Assembly (NCBI GenBank): GCA_020853095.1 | Contig: JADYZN010000004.1 | Span: 1 to 43,184, forward strand | Direction of reading: 5' to 3' | From: Phycisphaerales bacterium | GTDB taxonomy: Bacteria; Planctomycetota; Phycisphaerae; Tepidisphaerales; Tepidisphaeraceae | Length of the DNA stretch: 43,184 nt | Position numbers and translations under genes: made by a program | Part shown: positions 11,207-43,184 of the stretch, piece after piece | Numbering within the stretch: position 1 is the first letter of the stretch | Layout of the letters: each line of letters starts with the position of its first letter | Notes under the pieces: model-generated | Seen by the model: the letters and a program-made list of their open reading frames with translations, nothing else | What the model was told of the DNA's origin: nothing | Database searches by the model: none

Positions 11207-13021
11207 TCATTGCGATGGACCCTGGAGGGCGTCGCTCCCGCGACGCCGGGTTTGCTCTGGTACGGGAGCCCTCGCGATGTCGCCGCCGGCTGCTTGGTCC
11301 AGCGCCCGCAGCAAGTCGTCGCTTCCATATACGGAAGCCAGCACGATCGGGCCATTGAGCTTCGGGGCGTAGATCGCCGTCAGGGGAATCCCCCCGGCCG
11401 GGTTCAGTTGCAGCAGCAGCGGCTTGGCCAACTCCGAATCGGTCATGTCCGCCTTGAAAGCGACCACCTCGTGCCGGCGCAGCGCCTGCCAGATTTTCGG
11501 ATCCTGGTAGACGGTTCCCTCGATGTACTGGCAGGTGGCGCACCAGTTGGCGGTGAATTTCACCAGCACGATTTTTCCCTCGGACTTTGCCCGCTCAAAG
11601 CGTTCGGGTGTGTACGCCTCCCATTGCGATTCAACCTGCCCCTCGCCGCCGGACAGCATCGGCCGGCCCAACCCCGTCATCTTTGCCGTCCACCACAACG
11701 AAGCGCCGATCATCGCCACCGCCAGCACCGAGCTGATCGCCACCGCCCCGGCCGAGCGGGTCAACTGGACCGTTCGCGCCATCAGATAAAATCCCGCCAC
11801 CGCCACGGTCGCGCTGACCAGCCACCAGAACCCCGGCCCATGAATCGCTCGCCCCGCGCCGAAATACATCGCCGCCACCAGCAGCAAAAATCCCATCATC
11901 TGCTTGAACAATTCCGCCCAAGGCCCCGATCGCGGAAACCGCCGGGCCGCCTCGGGAAACGCGCTGAGGATCAGATACGGAGAGGCCATCCCCACCCCCA
12001 CCATCAACATCGCCGGAACCCCCACAATGGCCGGATGGCTCGCCGCCCACAACAGCAGCGCCGGCAGCAGCGGGGCGGTGCAGGGGGTCGCCAAGATCGC
12101 CGTCAACGCCCCCCAGAAAAAATTCCCTCCGAAAGTGTCATGCCGCGGCGAAAACCGATACGCCGCCGTCGGCAGGCTCACCGTGAACGCCCCCAGCAAT
12201 CCCAGCCCCATCACCGCCAGCAATGCCACCATCGGCCAGATGAACCACGCCCTGCTGAACAGTTCCCCCCACGAAATCACCCGCAACACCAGCACCAGCA
12301 TCGCCAAAACCGCGAAGATGGCGATCAACCCGATGCTGAAGACCACCCCCAGCATGAAACTTCTGCCCCGGCGATGCTGCGACACCTCATAAAACCCGAT
12401 CGCCTTGAGCGGCAGAACCGGCAGCACGCACGGCATCACGTTAAAAAGCAACCCCGCCACGAACGCCGCCCCGAACGCCGTCCAGATCGACCAGTCCGCG
12501 CCGGCCGGGTTGCCGCCGATCGTGGCTGGCAACGCCGCCACGGCCGACCCGGTCCCCCGCGTGATCGTCAGTTGCGCCTCAAACGGCTGATTTTCCGGAA
12601 AATAGCACGCCTTGTCGTCGCAGAGCTGATATCGAACCTTCCCCCGGATCGTCCGTTGTCCCATTTCGGCATCGCCCGCCATCACAAACGGCACGTTGAC
12701 CGTGATGGTTCCGGTGTACACGTTCAACTTTCCCAGCAGCGGATATTCCTGATCCTCCCCGCGCGGATAGTCCGGCACTCCAAACTCAATCCCCTCCTGC
12801 GCCGCCGGCAGCACTTCCAGCTTGATGTAATTGCCGCTTGAAGGGGTGTTTGACTGCGCGTGATAACCGGCTGGGATGTCGATCACCACCGCCAAATCAC
12901 CCCGTTCCCCCTGCGCGATGCTCGAATCGGCCACGGTCGCCCGCACCTGCGCCTGGGGCGCCCCTTGCGCCATCACCCCCAACCCCAGCACCACCGAGCA
13001 GATCCAGAGGCAAATCTTCAT
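11207..13021 (-). CDS. dsbD: DsbD-like thiol:disulfide interchange protein
   Basis: This 604-residue membrane protein carries reducing equivalents from cytoplasmic thioredoxin to the periplasm. After a signal sequence (MKICLWICSVVLGLGVMAQG) it has the N-terminal DsbD domain with the pair C134/C139 (YQLCDDKACYFP). The membrane core contains C198 (NVMPCVLPVLP) and C314 (LATPCTAPLLP). The C-terminal thioredoxin domain has the CxxC C494-A-T-C497 (FTANWCATCQ). The ATG at 13021 was chosen because a -10 box lies five bases upstream and the signal peptide begins there; the ATG at 13039 is an alternative. The last 16 residues are translated from a dispersed repeat (see 11223-11247). Confidence 0.9.
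   Translation of the reverse strand: MKICLWICSVVLGLGVMAQGAPQAQVRATVADSSIAQGERGDLAVVIDIPAGYHAQSNTPSSGNYIKLEVLPAAQEGIEFGVPDYPRGEDQEYPLLGKLNVYTGTITVNVPFVMAGDAEMGQRTIRGKVRYQLCDDKACYFPENQPFEAQLTITRGTGSAVAALPATIGGNPAGADWSIWTAFGAAFVAGLLFNVMPCVLPVLPLKAIGFYEVSQHRRGRSFMLGVVFSIGLIAIFAVLAMLVLVLRVISWGELFSRAWFIWPMVALLAVMGLGLLGAFTVSLPTAAYRFSPRHDTFGGNFFWGALTAILATPCTAPLLPALLLWAASHPAIVGVPAMLMVGVGMASPYLILSAFPEAARRFPRSGPWAELFKQMMGFLLLVAAMYFGAGRAIHGPGFWWLVSATVAVAGFYLMARTVQLTRSAGAVAISSVLAVAMIGASLWWTAKMTGLGRPMLSGGEGQVESQWEAYTPERFERAKSEGKIVLVKFTANWCATCQYIEGTVYQDPKIWQALRRHEVVAFKADMTDSELAKPLLLQLNPAGGIPLTAIYAPKLNGPIVLASVYGSDDLLRALDQAAGGDIARAPVPEQTRRRGSDALQGPSQ
11223..11247 (-). repeat. 25-bp dispersed repeat, copy 1 (inside the dsbD 3' end)
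   Basis: Arms GGCGTCG (11228-11234) and CGACGCC (11241-11247) flank a six-base centre. The reverse complement matches 35729-35753 at 22 of 25 positions, and all three differences are C/T. It encodes part of the C-terminal tail (TRRRGSDALQG) of the DsbD-like protein. Confidence 0.65.
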
Positions 13022-31357: not shown

Positions 31358-31386
31358 TTGTGCATCCCCATCCCATGCCTTAAATA
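31358..31386 (+). promoter_or_regulatory. Possible promoter of the CBM9-like gene
   Basis: TTGTGC (31358-31363), 17 bases, TAAATA (31381-31386). If this is real, transcription begins near 31393 and the second ATG (31395) would be the start, without a leader. Confidence 0.4.
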
Positions 31387-32066
31387 TGTCCGGCATGCAA
31401 TATCTGGTGCGTCAATCCGTCCAGGCCCCCGATCTGTCACCCGAAGCCGACCTGTCAAGCTGGACCGCCGCCGAGGTGCTTCACGTGGACCAGTACCGCC
31501 CCGAAAGCTCATCCCATCATCCAAAGACGGCCGTTCGACTGTTGCACCATGACCGGCATCTGTTCGTCCGGTTCGACGTGCAGGATCAGTTTGTCCGCTG
31601 CATCCGCGATCAATACCAGGACCTGGTCAGCAAGGACTCCTGCGTCGAATTTTTCCTCAAACCCAGGGAATCCGCCGGCTATTTCAATTTTGAAATCAAC
31701 TGCGGCGGCACGATGCTCCTTTTTTACATCGAAGATCCCGCCCGCGTGCCGGATGCCTTTTTCCGAAAATTCACCCCCATCCCGCTTGAGCAGGGCCGCC
31801 AGGTCCTCATCCAAAGCTCACTGCCCAAACGCATCGACCCCGAAATCACCACGCCGACCCGATGGCAATTGACCACATCCGTGCCGATCTCACTCCTCGA
31901 ATCGTATGTCGGCCCGCTCCACCCCCTGTCAGGCCAGACCTGGCAAGGCAACTTTTTCAAATGCGCCGATGAATGCTCCCACCCCCATTGGGCCAGTTGG
32001 TCCCCCATCCAAGGCCAGCTCCGTTTCCATCAACCCCAATTCTTCGGCTCGATCAAGTTCGAATAA
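31386..32066 (+). CDS. CBM9-like carbohydrate-binding protein
   Basis: The 226-residue product resembles the carbohydrate-binding family 9-like proteins. It has LSSWTAAEVLHVDQYRPESS at the start, TAVRLLHHDRHLFVRFDVQDQFVRC, the central DSCVEFFLKP and FNFEINCGGTMLLFYIED, and near the end WQGNFFKCADECSHPHWASWSP. These are matching beta-sandwich positions in the family. No signal peptide is visible, so its location is uncertain. The ATG at 31386 gives the longest form, but a promoter reading favours ATG 31395. It lies directly before the glycosidase operon. Confidence 0.72.
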   Translation: MSGMQYLVRQSVQAPDLSPEADLSSWTAAEVLHVDQYRPESSSHHPKTAVRLLHHDRHLFVRFDVQDQFVRCIRDQYQDLVSKDSCVEFFLKPRESAGYFNFEINCGGTMLLFYIEDPARVPDAFFRKFTPIPLEQGRQVLIQSSLPKRIDPEITTPTRWQLTTSVPISLLESYVGPLHPLSGQTWQGNFFKCADECSHPHWASWSPIQGQLRFHQPQFFGSIKFE

Positions 32067-32071
32067 TTTGC

Positions 32072-32105
32072 TTGGCGCGACATAGTTCACGATATAAACT
32101 AAGTC
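32072..32105 (+). promoter_or_regulatory. Promoter and operator of the glycosidase operon
   Basis: TTGGCG (32072-32077), 17 bases, TAAACT (32095-32100), then ATG at 32109 with no ribosome-binding site. The inverted repeat GACATAGTT-N9-AACTAAGTC (32079-32105) covers the spacer and the -10. The same 27-bp layout overlaps the ROK promoter at 35777-35803. Confidence 0.6.
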
Positions 32106-32108
32106 GCA

Positions 32109-34037
32109 ATGAAGTGGCTCCAATCTCTTTTCGCCCTCCTGTTTTTCATTCCGCCGGCTTTTGGCGGCACACTCAATCCGATCATCGCCATCTACGGCGG
32201 ATCGAACAGCCAGACCCAAGAACGAGCGCCGGCCGAGGGTGTGGACGTTTATTATCCATCCATCGACTGGTATCAAACTCCCCCATGGCTGGCCGGCATG
32301 ACAAAAGCGGCCCATGAGCAGGGGATCAAAGTCTATCCTTCGCTGGCCGCCGCCTACGATGCTTCTGGTGGCAAGCCCACGCCTTTCGCGGCCGAACACT
32401 CTGAATTCTGGGAAAAACGCAAAAATGGCACGCTTCTGGACAGTGGCGATGCCATCAATCTGAGCTGGGGCTATCCACAAGTCCGCCAGTACAAGGTCGA
32501 GGCGTTCACCCGGCTGGTGAGGGAATCGGGAGTCGATGGCATTCTGCTGGATTACACCCGATTTTTCGGCAACGACAGCGGTTACAGCCCGATCATTGTT
32601 GAGGCGTTCCGTAAAAAGACCGGCCGCGACCCCATGACAATTCCGACCGATGATCCACAGTGGATTCGGTTTCGGGCAGGGTATGTGACCAAATTTGTTC
32701 GAGAGTTGAAACAATCCCTTTCAACCCTCGGCCGCAAGGTTGAATTGATCGCCTGCGTGAACCCCGAATCTGATTTGTGTCTGAACAATAATTTGCAGGA
32801 TTGGAAAGGGTGGTTGGATCAGGGGCTGATCGACGGCGTGACCGTCATGGTCTATGAGCGCGACACCAACAACACAATGGGACGGGTGCATCTGGCCAGA
32901 GAAACGATTGCCGGCCGCGTGCCGTTGATCGCGATGATCTGCCCCGAATATGACAATCTGCCGACACCTCAGTTGATTCTGGAAGGCAGCCGCAAGGCAC
33001 TGCGGGCGGGGGCCGATGGAGTGGCCTATTACCACGAAGGGTCGATCATCCGGCTGAATCTGTGGGAGGCGATTGGAGAGGTTGCTCGCTGGGATTTGAA
33101 GACAATTCAATCCGAGCCGGTAAACCTGATGTTGAACGGCGGATTTGATCAGGAATTGCAGTCGTGGGCGGTGGGGTATGGCCAAGGCGTGCGGGTTGAA
33201 AATGGGGCGCTGCGAATGGAGTTGCCTTCATCCGATGGCATACGTCAGGTGGCGGATCGGGGGCTGATCGAACAGGGGACCGCGATTGAATTTTCCGCGA
33301 AGGCGATACTTAAATCCGATGGGCCTGCGCAACTTGTCGCCCAAATCACGCTGTCCTTTGAAGGTCCTGGCAAAAACGTGCAATACCGCGTGCCGCTGGA
33401 GTTGCGGCCAGGCGAAAATTGGCAGCAATGGTCGGCCGATATGAATCTGCCTGATTCTGCGCACTTGAAGTCGATTCAACTGTATCTCCACCCAACCCAG
33501 GGCGACGGGGCGTGCGTGGTGGATGATGTCAGCCTGAAGATCATTCCAAAGAGCGTGCCGGCCGGGCAATATGCCATCCCATCGCCCGCGGCGATTGATC
33601 CGCCCAAGGGGGTGAATGTCGCCCGCGGCCAGGTGGTGCGGGGAACGTCGTTCTGGGAAAACGGTTTTGATTACGACAACGCCGTTGACGGCGATTTATC
33701 CAGCGAAAATTACGGCAAAGGAGCGGCATGGCATTCACAACGACCCGCCAAGGATCAGTCGATCACCATCTATCTTGATCGACCATACCGCATCACCAAA
33801 ATCCGTCTTTTGAATGCCTCGGCCATGGCGGCATATCGAACCGATGCCTACAAACTGGAAGTGTCGGCCGACGGCAAAACTTTTTATCAAGTCGCTTCCG
33901 GCCGTCTGCCGGACGATGGAACCACCTGGACCGAAATCAAACTGCCTCCCACACCCGCCAGTCTGATCCGTTTCACCGGCGTACGCGGCTTCAATCTGGA
34001 CTATGCTGTGGGGTTGAAAGAAATCGAGGTTTACTGA
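32109..34037 (+). CDS. Secreted GHL10-like glycoside hydrolase with CBM and F5/8 C domains
   Basis: This 642-residue protein is probably exported by the signal MKWLQSLFALLFFIPPAFGG. Residues about 25-340 form a TIM-barrel-like domain of the hypothetical glycosidase type (GHL), with VRESGVDGILLDYTRFFG, similar to the DGIxLDxxRYP strand of GHL10. A beta-sandwich of the CBM4/9 kind follows (about 345-485, LMLNGGFDQELQSWAVGYG). Last comes an F5/8 type C (CBM32-like) domain (about 505-642, VARGQVVRGTSFWENGFDYDNAVDGD). Substrate is unknown. No Shine-Dalgarno precedes the ATG. Its stop overlaps the next start (TGATG). Confidence 0.78.
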   Translation: MKWLQSLFALLFFIPPAFGGTLNPIIAIYGGSNSQTQERAPAEGVDVYYPSIDWYQTPPWLAGMTKAAHEQGIKVYPSLAAAYDASGGKPTPFAAEHSEFWEKRKNGTLLDSGDAINLSWGYPQVRQYKVEAFTRLVRESGVDGILLDYTRFFGNDSGYSPIIVEAFRKKTGRDPMTIPTDDPQWIRFRAGYVTKFVRELKQSLSTLGRKVELIACVNPESDLCLNNNLQDWKGWLDQGLIDGVTVMVYERDTNNTMGRVHLARETIAGRVPLIAMICPEYDNLPTPQLILEGSRKALRAGADGVAYYHEGSIIRLNLWEAIGEVARWDLKTIQSEPVNLMLNGGFDQELQSWAVGYGQGVRVENGALRMELPSSDGIRQVADRGLIEQGTAIEFSAKAILKSDGPAQLVAQITLSFEGPGKNVQYRVPLELRPGENWQQWSADMNLPDSAHLKSIQLYLHPTQGDGACVVDDVSLKIIPKSVPAGQYAIPSPAAIDPPKGVNVARGQVVRGTSFWENGFDYDNAVDGDLSSENYGKGAAWHSQRPAKDQSITIYLDRPYRITKIRLLNASAMAAYRTDAYKLEVSADGKTFYQVASGRLPDDGTTWTEIKLPPTPASLIRFTGVRGFNLDYAVGLKEIEVY

Positions 34038-35674
34038 TGCGATGTGTATTCACGACCGTGATAATCGGATGGATGTGCTGCTCCGTGATGGCGAACGAGA
34101 ATTACGTGACGACAGTCACGCCCAACCCCGGTGCGGGGAAGTTTCGATTGCGGCATGATCCGGACAGGCCGGTGCTGGGATTTTATGGCGGGATCGGGTT
34201 GTGGAAATTGTCCGATGGGCGCTGGACAGGGTATGGCGTCAAGTCCAAAGAGCAGGTGGATTACCTGATCCAGCGGTGCAAAGAGAACGGGATGAACCGG
34301 ATCTATGCTTCGATGCAGGAGGAGCAGTATTCGTCGAAGTACACGCCTTCGCCGGTCGAGGGGAGCACGGATTATATCGCCTACTGCATCCAGCGGGCGC
34401 ACGAGGAGGGGATCGAGTTTTATGCGGACATGCCGATTTTCGCGTATGTTCATGGCAAAAACGATGAATTCGCCAAGGCGCATCCGGAGGTGTTTACGCG
34501 CGATCAATCCGGCGTGTTGGATACGCACATGTTCAGTGCCGCCTGGCCATTGGTACGACAATACAAGCGCGCGCTGTTGATGGAATTCGTGCAGAATTAT
34601 CCGATTGATGGCTTGCAGTTGGATTTTATTCGATATCCGTATTACTGGAAGAACCTTCGGGAAGGATATTGCAGGCATGGGTATGATCAGCCGTCGCTGG
34701 AGAAGTTCCGGCGGGAGTTTGGTTATAACGCGAGTTATGTGCCGACTCCTAACGATCCGCGCTGGTTGAAAGTGCGGTCGGACACGGTGACACAGTTTAT
34801 TCGGGAGCTGTGCGGGGATTTGGAACAGGCCGGGGTGAAGCTTCCGATCGGTGTTTATGATTCGGGGACGTATGGACGCAAGGACAGCTATCACGATGTG
34901 TTGCAGGATTGGCAGCAATGGGAGACAGAGGGGCTGGTCGATCAGCACAGCCCGATGTTTCTGATGACGGCCGGCATGGGGAACCTCGCGTATACGGTGC
35001 AAAGCCTGATGGAAGTGAAACGGCCGAGCACCGAGTTGCTGGGGCCGATATTTCTGGCGGAAGGGTTTAACACCGACCAGGGGGATGTGCCGACGGCTGA
35101 CATGGTGCGTGATGCGGCCAGGCGGATGATCAAGCTGGGGTGCAATTCGCTGTGGTTCTGCCGGGCGTCGGAGATCGAGCAGTACGATTTGTGGCCGGTA
35201 GTGAAGGAGATATCGCAATGGTCGATCAAGGAAATCCGCGGCGAGGATTTCGATCCATTTTATGAGAATTTACTGGCAACAGGCGCGATCCAGCCGGGAG
35301 TGGAGGTGCAACTTGCGGCGAATAAAGGAGTTGAGTTAACTCAGGTGGTGAAGTTCCGGCCGATCCAGCATTTGTCGGTGGATTCGCTCGCGATCAAGGT
35401 GAAGGTGGATTTTTCGGGGGCAAAAGTGGAGGGGCCCGCTGGGTTGCGACTGAAGTTGAAATATAAGAACGGGATGGAAGAGACGGTGTCTTATCGGACG
35501 GGCGTTGCCGTGCAGGGCATGTCGGAACTGGTATGGACCGTTCCGGTCACGACGGATTTTAATACGATTCTGCTGACGGAGGCTCAATTAACGGTGGAAT
35601 TTCCCAGGGGAACGGGCAAGGCGGTGGTTCAGGGTGCGGAGATGATTCGGGATCCGTTGTTGAGGCGGCCGTAA
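34037..35674 (+). CDS. Secreted GHL10-like glycoside hydrolase
   Basis: The 545-residue product starts with a signal peptide (MRCVFTTVIIGWMCCSVMA). The catalytic-type barrel has RCKENGMNRIYASMQEEQY, AHEEGIEFYADMPIFAYVHGKNDEFAKAHPEVFTRD and NYPIDGLQLDFIRYPYYW. The last is the GHL10/DUF187 hallmark, in which the Asp is a candidate catalytic residue. The last 120 residues are a beta domain. The start overlaps the previous stop by one base, so the two hydrolases are made together. Enzyme activity is inferred from fold; no characterised homolog is recognised. Confidence 0.75.
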   Translation: MRCVFTTVIIGWMCCSVMANENYVTTVTPNPGAGKFRLRHDPDRPVLGFYGGIGLWKLSDGRWTGYGVKSKEQVDYLIQRCKENGMNRIYASMQEEQYSSKYTPSPVEGSTDYIAYCIQRAHEEGIEFYADMPIFAYVHGKNDEFAKAHPEVFTRDQSGVLDTHMFSAAWPLVRQYKRALLMEFVQNYPIDGLQLDFIRYPYYWKNLREGYCRHGYDQPSLEKFRREFGYNASYVPTPNDPRWLKVRSDTVTQFIRELCGDLEQAGVKLPIGVYDSGTYGRKDSYHDVLQDWQQWETEGLVDQHSPMFLMTAGMGNLAYTVQSLMEVKRPSTELLGPIFLAEGFNTDQGDVPTADMVRDAARRMIKLGCNSLWFCRASEIEQYDLWPVVKEISQWSIKEIRGEDFDPFYENLLATGAIQPGVEVQLAANKGVELTQVVKFRPIQHLSVDSLAIKVKVDFSGAKVEGPAGLRLKLKYKNGMEETVSYRTGVAVQGMSELVWTVPVTTDFNTILLTEAQLTVEFPRGTGKAVVQGAEMIRDPLLRRP

Positions 35675-35689
35675 AACCCTCTCCCTTGC

Positions 35690-35715
35690 CCCTCTCCCAG
35701 CGTGCTGGGGGAGGG
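35690..35715. repeat. GC-rich hairpin repeat, copy 3
   Basis: CCCTCTCCCAGC (35690-35701), two bases, GCTGGGGGAGGG (35704-35715): 12 pairs with one wobble. It follows the hydrolase stop by 15 bases and may terminate or stabilise that transcript. The flanks CCCCTCT and AGAGGGG offer an alternative pairing. Confidence 0.7.
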
Positions 35716-35728
35716 AACCAGAGGGGCC

Positions 35729-35753
35729 GGCGTCGTGGGAGCGATGCCTTCCA
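35729..35753 (+). repeat. 25-bp dispersed repeat, copy 2
   Basis: GGCGTCG (35729-35735), TGGGAG, CGATGCC (35742-35748), TTCCA. It matches the reverse complement of 11223-11247 at 22 of 25 positions. Here it is intergenic. Confidence 0.65.
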
Positions 35754-35770
35754 AGAAAAAAAGATTTTTC

Positions 35771-35803
35771 TTGACAGACATTATTTATGAAGTAAACTAT
35801 GTC
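35771..35803 (+). promoter_or_regulatory. Promoter and operator of the ROK gene
   Basis: A consensus TTGACA (35771-35776), 16 bases, TAAACT (35793-35798). The inverted repeat GACATTATT-N9-AACTATGTC (35777-35803) fills the spacer and covers the -10. Transcription should start near 35805, which excludes ATG 35799 as the start codon. Confidence 0.65.
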
Positions 35804-35840: not shown

Positions 35841-36917
35841 ATGGACAAGGCTCAGATCGGAAACAGCGACCTGATTTCAACGGTGAACAGCCGGTTGATT
35901 TTGCAGGCGGTGCGGGTGATGCAGCCGACGTATCGGGCGTCGGTGGCCCGGCAGACGGGGTTGAAGCCGGCGACGGTGACGGGGATCGTCAATGATTTGT
36001 TGTCGCAGCAGATTTTGAGTGAAGTGCCCGCCGCGACACCGACGGGCAGCGACGAATCGGGGACGCGGTGGGGGCGGCCGCCTTTGATGTTGCAGGTGAA
36101 TGCGGATGCCAAGCGGATCGTGGCGATTGACCTGGAGCCGGATCGGATTCGGGTGGCGTTGACGGATCTTTTGGTGAACGTGCTGAATTATCAGGAGCAG
36201 GCGATTGATCGGTTTTCCGAGCCGGAGGCGATCATCAAGACGATGTTGAAGCTGGCCGGCCGGGCGTTGGAGGATGTGGACCGGCAGCAGTTGCAGGGGG
36301 TGGGGGTGAGCCTGCCGGGATTGATTGACCGGGAGGCGGGGGTTTTGATCAGTTCAACCAACATGCCCAAATGGCGGGATGTGCCGATCCGGGACATTTT
36401 GCAGAAAGAGTTGGGGGTTCCGGTGCAGGTGGAGCGGTCGATTCACCTGGCGGCGGTCTACGAGAAATGGTCGGACCCGAATCATGCGCACCGGACGACG
36501 TTGATGTTGACACTGCGGACGGGGGTGGGGATCAGCATCATGCACCATGGGCATCTGCTGACGGGCCGGCGGGGTTTTGAAGGGGAGATCGGGCACACGG
36601 TGGTGGACCTGAACGGCAAGGCATGCGAATGCGGCGGCAAGGGGTGCCTGGAGACGTTTGTCAGCGCCTCGGCGATCGTGGCGCGGGCGGCGGAGATGAT
36701 TCATCAGGGCAAGTGCCAAGGATTGTTGACGGCGATGCGCGGGGGGACGGATTTGCGGCCGGAACTGATCTATAAGTTCGCCAAACGCGGCGACCGGGAC
36801 TGCGCCCGGATCGTTCAGGAAATCGGCAAATATCTGGGAATCGCGATCGGCAACATGATCAATCTGTTCGCGCCCGATGAGGTGGTGATCTGCGGTTCGA
36901 TTGACATGGTGGAGTAG
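35841..36917 (+). CDS. ROK-family transcriptional regulator, truncated by in-frame TAG
   Basis: ATG 35841 has GAAGG five bases upstream. The N-terminal helix-turn-helix (YRASVARQTGLKPATVTGIVNDLLSQQ) is followed by the ROK sugar-sensing domain: ATPase-like strands, VGVSLPGLIDREAGV, GFEGEIGHTVVDL and the zinc motif CECGGKGCLE. The kinase DN motif is absent, which fits a repressor. The frame stops at TAG 36915-36917 after 358 residues (CGSIDMVE), but the reading frame continues for 75 more codons with the normal C-terminal ROK sequence. It therefore lacks the last helices, and its function is uncertain. It sits inside the locus it probably regulates. Confidence 0.8.
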   Translation: MDKAQIGNSDLISTVNSRLILQAVRVMQPTYRASVARQTGLKPATVTGIVNDLLSQQILSEVPAATPTGSDESGTRWGRPPLMLQVNADAKRIVAIDLEPDRIRVALTDLLVNVLNYQEQAIDRFSEPEAIIKTMLKLAGRALEDVDRQQLQGVGVSLPGLIDREAGVLISSTNMPKWRDVPIRDILQKELGVPVQVERSIHLAAVYEKWSDPNHAHRTTLMLTLRTGVGISIMHHGHLLTGRRGFEGEIGHTVVDLNGKACECGGKGCLETFVSASAIVARAAEMIHQGKCQGLLTAMRGGTDLRPELIYKFAKRGDRDCARIVQEIGKYLGIAIGNMINLFAPDEVVICGSIDMVE

Positions 36918-37145
36918 TTGATTCTGGAGGCGGTGCGGGAGCAGGTCGAGAAGAGCGCCCTGCCGCGCAGCCGCGAGGGGCTGACGATCCGGCTGGCGCG
37001 GGAAAAGGACCGGCTGCCACTGCTGGGCGCGGCGGTGCTGGTGGCGGAGGAGATGTTTGAACTGCCGAGTTTGAGGCATTCGGGGGGAATGGCGGAGAAC
37101 GAATCGTCTCTGGCGGCCAGTCATGGAAACGGCCGCGGAGAATGA
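35841..37145 (+). pseudogene. Full-length ROK gene span including the part after the amber codon
   Basis: Codons 36918-37145 run directly on in frame after TAG and encode LILEAVREQVEKSALPRSRE, then LPLLGAAVLVAEEMF. That is what an intact ROK protein has after its VxxCGxxxxxx strand (a helix, then the LGAAxLA helix). With TAG read as an amino acid the protein would be 434 residues. A single base change explains the stop. Whether it is a mutation, a sequencing error or a suppressed codon cannot be told from sequence. Confidence 0.65.
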
Positions 37146-41855: not shown

Positions 41856-43184
41856 AGATTGCGCTATTGTTGGTCACCATGATTGCGCTGGCAGCGGACG
41901 CGGCACCAGGCCCGTTGATGTCGTCGTTGTCGGAACAACAGCGGCAACAGTTCACAAAGATGACAATGCCACCGCCGGCGAAGGAACGACACGGACCTTA
42001 TTCAACGCCAATGTATTACCTGATGCACAAAGGGTACGAATACAATGGGAGCCTGGACGAGGGACCGACGGGGCGCACGTATATCCAGAACAAGCCGGGA
42101 CCGGATTATGGGTGCTGGGCGCTGGATCGCAATCGCCCGGACTGGCAGGAGGCGATGATCAAGGACTGGGTGGAACTGGGGTTGAACAACACGCACCTGA
42201 ACATCTATCCGCTGGAGGACAAGTACGATCTGCCGGCGGATTATCTGAAGGCGATAAGGGACTTTGCGCATCTCAGCGAACAATACGGCTTGAAGGTGGG
42301 GGTGCGGCTGGATCCGCCGGGGGGATACGTGGCATGGGATGTCAATCCGGACAATCCGGACAATCATCTGAAGGAATATCTGCAATGGACCAGGACGCTG
42401 GCGGAATTGTTGAAGGGGAAGACGGCGTATTGGGTGCTGGGTGATGAGCTGACGCTGCATGAGAAGTCGGAGAAGGACCTGCCGGAAAAGGCGTGGACGA
42501 CGGAAGGGTATTTGAACTATTTCAAACAGGTCAGCACGGCCATTAAACAGATCGATCCCGATGCGAAGGTGTCGATGTTCGCAGCCGAAAGCGGCAAGTG
42601 GGACGTGGTGTTGAACCTGCTCAAGCATGGCTATGCGGAATACGGCGATGCGGTGGCGATCAATTATTACAACTACACTGATGTGCCGCGATTTTTTGAT
42701 GATGCGCGGAAACTGGCGCCGAAACTGATGTTTTTGTCCAATGGAGTGGGGTATTGCTCCAACGGGCTGGTGGAGCCGAGGTATCCGGAGGGGGATCCGT
42801 ATTCCAGGGTATCCAGTGAAGAAGAGCACGGTGACACGATTGCAAAGAATATGTTCGCCTGGTGGGATCTTGGGGCATCCACCGCGCCGTATTACATCAG
42901 CCTGCGGAATTGGGTGAAGGATGGAAAGGTCTATCCTCGGTGGTTCGGATTTTTCGGGTTTGAGGATTACATCATCGAGAATGACCAGTTGAGCGTGAAG
43001 CGATATCCGGGGTGGTATGCGTTGCGGACCATTGCGCATACGTTTTACAACCGCGATCAGTTCAGGACGCCGGGGTTTGCGGTGAAATCATCGGCTGATT
43101 TGACGATGTTCAAGGCGTATGAGCACAAGCTGGCGGGTGGAAGCGAATTGTTGCTGATGCTGTGGAACGATTCGGGGAATCAGA
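41852..43184 (+). CDS. Secreted clan-A-like glycoside hydrolase homolog (paralog 2, runs off right edge)
   Basis: The frame is open from ATG 41852 to the window end (444 codons seen). It starts with a signal peptide (MKIALLLVTMIALAADA). The barrel has TAYWVLGDELTLHEKS at the acid/base position and KLMFLSNGVGYCSNG where the nucleophile Glu is expected, again replaced. Then come NMFAWWDLGASTAPYY and WYALRTIAHTFYNRDQF, the same order as in the gene before. The two are tandem paralogs. The C-terminal beta domain is cut by the window edge. No promoter separates them. Confidence 0.72.
   Translation, partial: MKIALLLVTMIALAADAAPGPLMSSLSEQQRQQFTKMTMPPPAKERHGPYSTPMYYLMHKGYEYNGSLDEGPTGRTYIQNKPGPDYGCWALDRNRPDWQEAMIKDWVELGLNNTHLNIYPLEDKYDLPADYLKAIRDFAHLSEQYGLKVGVRLDPPGGYVAWDVNPDNPDNHLKEYLQWTRTLAELLKGKTAYWVLGDELTLHEKSEKDLPEKAWTTEGYLNYFKQVSTAIKQIDPDAKVSMFAAESGKWDVVLNLLKHGYAEYGDAVAINYYNYTDVPRFFDDARKLAPKLMFLSNGVGYCSNGLVEPRYPEGDPYSRVSSEEEHGDTIAKNMFAWWDLGASTAPYYISLRNWVKDGKVYPRWFGFFGFEDYIIENDQLSVKRYPGWYALRTIAHTFYNRDQFRTPGFAVKSSADLTMFKAYEHKLAGGSELLLMLWNDSGNQ

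Follow-up and report, generated by a model that had tools for sequence, protein, structure and literature searches.

Two regulators of the ROK family have described operators against which the present locus can be read. The operator of XylR of Paenibacillus polymyxa is ACTTAGTTTAAGCAATAGACAAAGT and was tested by EMSA (PMC9104551), and RokB of Streptomyces coelicolor has the site TTTGTTC-N11-GAACAAA (PMC4856308). For the Phycisphaerae, our search for literature on ROK regulation found none. The window analysed here, a stretch of 43,184 bp from a Phycisphaerales bacterium, carries two palindromes which we propose, with a probability of roughly 0.8, to be operators of the adjacent ROK protein, a predicted sugar-relieved autorepressor of itself and of secreted glycosidases.

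Palindromes and promoter architecture

The preliminary description of this DNA had placed palindromes at 32079-32105 and 35777-35803, and the sequence contains both exactly as written there: GACATAGTTCACGATATAAACTAAGTC (operator 1) and GACATTATTTATGAAGTAAACTATGTC (operator 2), each 27 bp long. It had also assigned them a common 9-N9-9 form. The pair is indeed palindromic, but comparison of all copies shows that the real symmetry is longer, 12-N3-12, with the symmetric consensus GACWTARTTYAC-NNN-GTRAAYTAWGTC, i.e., 12-bp arms around a 3-bp centre. All eight sites fit [AG]TT[CT]-N7-AAA[CT], which puts a core of the XylR type, GTTT-N7-AAAC, at the promoter.

Operator 1 is preceded by a CBM9 gene (31386-32066) and followed by two overlapping forward-strand genes for GHL10 glycosidase-like proteins. 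The first (32109-34037) encodes a secreted GHL10 glycosidase-like protein with an F5/8C domain (PF02638, 2.4e-21; PF00754, 7.8e-16), whose N-terminus reads as signal-peptide-like in the sequence; the second GHL10 gene (34037-35674; PF02638, 8.7e-22) overlaps it by one base and belongs to the same operon. Operator 2 stands at the promoter of the ROK gene, beyond which follow a PEP-CTERM/LamG protein and then a prepilin-like protein. Xylose catabolism genes, as would be typical of XylR, are not found beside the ROK gene, the neighbours being CBM9, GHL10, PEP-CTERM and prepilin-like genes. A hairpin-like repeat, GGCGTCG-N-GGGAGCGACGCC, occurs twice in the window (35729-35748 and 11228-11247; 0.05 expected in shuffles) and once on contig C21 of the same genome, directly before a ROK promoter; it may be an intergenic repeat.

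Each of the eight sites has TTGRCR at its left edge and TAAAYT or TAAACA at operator positions 17-22, the operator starting 0-1 bp past the TTGRCR hexamer and the two hexamers being 16-17 bp apart. The earlier placement of the sites inside the -35/-10 interval therefore needs extending: they cover the spacer, but, starting 0-1 bp past the -35, they also cover the -10. At the ROK promoter, the -35 hexamer TTGACA (35771-35776, forward strand; 10/12 in the promoter scan) is followed after 16 nt by TAAACT (35793-35798). This is the only one of the two promoters that passes a generic sigma-70 scan, the glycosidase promoter reaching 8/12. For the latter, the -35-like hexamer TTGGCG (32072-32077, forward strand) was assigned from the sequence and from its counterparts at the same spacing in two related genomes, TTGACA in G001 and TTGACG/TTGGCG in G018; operator 1 overlaps the spacer and the -10 TAAACT at 32095-32100.

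The glycosidase ATG lies 8 nt past the -10, so the glycosidase mRNA is probably leaderless. A few ROK proteins activate transcription. That the present ROK is such an activator, or that the palindrome is a structure in leader RNA, appears improbable to us: a site that covers the -10 is better suited to steric repression, and transcription is expected to start downstream of operator 1, which would leave the palindrome out of the RNA.

Taken by itself, the operator 1/2 pair could be within reach of chance. Palindromes of the 9-N9-9 form with at most two mismatches number 95 in the window, and dinucleotide shuffles give 87 on average. A palindrome pair as alike as the two operators is present in 98 of 300 such shuffles. 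The low expectation that a pattern search gave is circular, as the pattern was written from these two sites. The operators are established because they are conserved across genomes, not by the palindromes in the window alone.

Distribution of the sites in the genome and its relatives

The preliminary description had proposed to search the complete genome for the motif and to see whether hits precede glycosidase genes. In the 3.6-Mb assembly, which is fragmented into 77 contigs, the pattern with at most two mismatches occurs at three strong places, each of which is a promoter of this cassette, for either the ROK gene or the glycosidases; the reversed control gave 0. The third strong site belongs to contig C21, where it marks the promoter of a second copy of this ROK gene, part of which has been deleted. 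A sequence model (R1) built from the eight sites, each taken in both orientations, recovered the same three sites with E-values of 7e-5 to 3e-4 (2e-4 for operator 1 and 7e-5 for operator 2), and one weaker place, C1:93-115, with E 1.2. Matrix matches within the window at 34715 and 39400 (about 14 bits) lie inside predicted genes and were discounted as sites.

Both sites are kept at the same two promoters in G001, a genome of the same genus (Phycisphaerales MAG SJ194, JADLBV010000026.1), where the ortholog of operator 1 is CACATAGTTTACGAGATAAACAATGTG and the counterpart of operator 2, in the same place, is CACATTATTTACGAGGTAAACTATGTC. G018, which represents another genus of the family (MAG SJ207, JADLCB010000026.1), has three sites beside an intact ROK ortholog; one site each stands before the CBM9 gene, what remains of a secreted leader, and the ROK gene itself. 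The counterpart of operator 2 is GACTTTATTTATGTAGTAAATTATATC, again in the same place. Across these two genomes and that of the window (G000), the operator sites hold while their flanks diverge. The three are close kin, and their agreement does not amount to three independent events. G018 (C26; L040:2500-3562) has two copies of the unit made up of promoter, operator and signal-peptide leader. One is fused to the CBM9 gene, and the other precedes a short remnant of a leader at the expected GHL10 position. Judged by this arrangement, the regulatory and secretion unit has apparently been copied onto another gene.

Among 61 relatives, model matches with E<0.01 were confined to G000, G001 and G018, the three with a close ortholog of this ROK, and every match lies beside it; weaker matches occur in G001 (C131, E 0.05) and G032 (E 0.22). 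The strict pattern was found in three of 397 genomes of the class, namely G000, G018 and a lone match elsewhere, which is no more than the control, itself yielding scattered single matches. G001 is absent from this result because its sites carry two or three mismatches. The exact motif was not found by the strict pattern in any other ROK lineage in the 397 genomes. Matches in G005 and G007 carry two mismatches each and arise at the same rate as in the control. A match of 24.9 bits on G001:C5 falls within pheT, where the conserved stretch NIVDVTNYVM is encoded, and we discarded it as a coincidence of coding sequence.

That operators 1 and 2 are unrelated palindromes, alike by chance as the 98 of 300 shuffles would allow, is very hard to reconcile with their retention at matching promoters in three genomes, with the confinement of the motif to relatives that have the ROK ortholog and with its fit to an EMSA-tested ROK operator. 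The searches of the 61 relatives and the 397 class genomes strongly disfavour it.

A regulator other than the adjacent ROK protein, either a ROK paralog or a member of a different family, might control both genes. The genome does encode three further full-length ROK proteins, but their own promoters (L006, L007, L008) lack the site, and the motif co-occurs with this ROK across relatives; we regard control by another regulator as unlikely. ROK genes here do not share the motif as a rule, since only two of 12 other ROK promoters scanned have a similar site. One, in G019 (C333; L014:1427-1453; 17.4 bits), lies 65 bp before the inferred start of a divergent ROK gene, and the other, in G024 (C417; L042:1501-1527; 14.6 bits), lies 28 bp before such a start. 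These palindromes, in two other genera of the family, suggest an older shared operator type.

A weak, conserved operator-like site also precedes a pair of RraA-like and acetamidase/formamidase-like (FmdA/AmdA-like) genes in all three genomes (L052:90-116, L058:1498-1524 and L061:1419-1445), elsewhere in the genome from the cassette. The weaker model matches on C1 (E 1.2) and G001:C131 (E 0.05) are those before this pair, and a similar site occupies the same position at the G018 ortholog. The right half-site is a good match and the left half a poor one. Near the pair, both C1 and G018 encode a sodium:solute symporter; C1 has a GHL10 gene there as well, and G018 has BNR proteins. The site may place the RraA/amidase pair under the control of this ROK; control by a ROK paralog instead is conceivable.

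The ROK protein and its damaged copies

As assembled, the ROK regulator gene (35841-36917, forward strand; PF00480) encodes 358 amino acids and ends at an in-frame TAG (36915-36917). Position 35841 is most likely the translation start, because an upstream ATG at 35799, inside operator 2, is not kept in G018. The ROK domain scores 7.3e-49 in the window ORF and 9.8e-57 with the stop read through, and the protein is 89% identical to the intact 429-aa G018 ortholog. An N-terminal winged-helix region is present, with the NagC (NF047937) and Mlc (NF049930) models matching from residues 3-5 and the alignment with Lmo0178 of Listeria beginning at residue 5. The protein has lost the phosphate loop and the catalytic Asp of the sugar kinases (DLGGTT and DNDANVAA of glucokinase 2qm1 align with DLEPDR and ERSIHLAA), and the zinc motif CxCGxxGCxE and the sugar motif ExGH are kept as CECGGKGCLE and GEIGH. 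With its helix-turn-helix present, its kinase residues replaced and its zinc and sugar-binding motifs kept, the protein is a regulator in character.

The TAG takes off about 75 C-terminal residues, so that the window copy lacks the complete C-terminal ROK lobe found in the G018 ortholog. The frame continues, conserved, from 36918 to 37145 on the forward strand; should the stop be genuine, the protein lacks this stretch. At the position of the TAG, a sense codon stands in the C21 copy and in the G018 ortholog alike. Past it, 54 codons differ from G018 by 12 synonymous and three non-synonymous changes, and dN/dS is about 0.08 versus 0.16 before the TAG. The continued conservation of these codons implies either that the stop arose very recently or that it reflects a sequencing, consensus or assembly error. 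Given the TAG in the assembly, the activity of the window ROK, as judged from its sequence, is uncertain.

The second ROK cassette (L004; contig C21, 1-3803) has an intact promoter and operator, and its ROK gene lacks about 1 kb. Past the damaged gene, C21 carries prepilin-like, PEP-CTERM and secreted-protein genes. C21 overlaps two other contigs exactly, by 127 bp in each case: one of its ends matches the right end of the window contig, and the other matches contig C1. Overlaps of this kind are expected of edges in an assembly graph whose word length is close to that value, so the C21 junctions are probably supported by reads, although C21 could come from a strain variant. At the right end of the window, a secreted-protein gene (41860-43184) is open at the contig end and 58% identical overall to its C21 counterpart, with the last 127 bp identical. 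The relatives of this gene on C21 and in G018 gave no Pfam match.

These observations bear on a variant of the autorepressor explanation, not its opposite, in which the regulon is decaying: the operators would be real but their own repressor defunct in this genome, leaving the glycosidases constitutive or under another ROK. We hold this to be a real but lesser possibility. It is consistent with the in-frame TAG where the other two copies read sense codons, with a C21 copy that retains promoter and operator and is missing about 1 kb of the ROK gene, and with the likely read-supported joining of C21 to the window contig and C1. It fits less well with codons past the TAG that are as conserved as those before it, with a stop that is very recent or erroneous, and with the fragmentation of the assembly. 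With its window ROK truncated and its C21 copy mostly deleted, the genome may encode no functional form of this repressor.

We regard as doubtful the broader suggestion that this ROK regulon is being rewired, with the unit copied to CBM9 in G018, both repressor copies damaged in G000 and the operators remaining. Were it true, the operators would be orphans, or the repressor would work without its C-terminal lobe.

Predicted circuit and comparison with known ROK systems

Returning to autorepression by the adjacent ROK protein, the link between ROK gene and glycosidase operon drawn in the preliminary description is well supported by the genome search and by the conservation of both sites in relatives. 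The ROK product would be a sugar-responsive repressor resembling NagC, Mlc and XylR, whose dimer would contact the two GACWTARTTYAC half-sites with a helix-turn-helix apiece. As the operator stretches from the edge of the -35 across the whole -10, the bound dimer would keep RNA polymerase off the glycosidase promoter and its own promoter. Sugar freed by the secreted enzymes would bind ROK and release it from the operator, and the outcome would be negative autoregulation with coordinated induction. Binding by ROK, repression rather than activation and a sugar ligand are what we infer from this arrangement. So understood, this is an ordinary small sugar-control circuit, unusual in that both repressor copies are damaged in this assembly. 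It gives a concrete candidate operator for a ROK regulator in the Phycisphaerae (Planctomycetota) and links otherwise uncharacterised GHL10/CBM9 secreted proteins to a predicted sugar-induction circuit. Such operator claims rest largely on cross-genome comparison and not on palindromes by themselves.

At the protein level, NagC and Mlc (NF047937, NF049930; PDB 1z6r, 3bp8) have the same domain plan, a helix-turn-helix followed by the ROK domain, and are the best NCBIfam matches, their models covering the ROK protein over most of the model length. However, the scores are far under the equivalog cut-offs (187 versus 650 bits for NagC), and the protein is not an ortholog of either. Among the solved structures nearest to the protein are those of ROK regulators, namely Lmo0178, 1z05 and Mlc. 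Lmo0178 (PDB 5f7p, 5f7q, 5f7r) is the closest solved ROK regulator, aligning over nearly its whole length with E 1e-43 in this protein-level comparison, but its sequence is distant.

Like the present ROK, RokB is a ROK regulator with an inverted-repeat site overlapping a start codon, but its half-site and spacing are different, and the present matrix gives its site a score of -19. The same matrix does not fit the clostridial group-1 XylR motif either. The closest resemblance is to XylR of P. polymyxa, a ROK repressor that shares the 25-27 bp palindrome, the ACTTAGTTTA half-site, the GTTT-N7-AAAC core and the position of the operator on sugar-gene promoters. The sites described here differ in their conserved outer G and inner C/G, and their neighbours encode GHL10/CBM9 secreted proteins, in contrast to xylAB. 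The P. polymyxa operator scores 16.8 bits with the site matrix in the same register, and the motif accordingly belongs, as a variant, to an operator type already known for ROK proteins. The proposal that it defines a new ROK subgroup is thus not borne out: by its sequence, it is a close variant of the XylR-type ROK operator and a clade-specific version of that known type.
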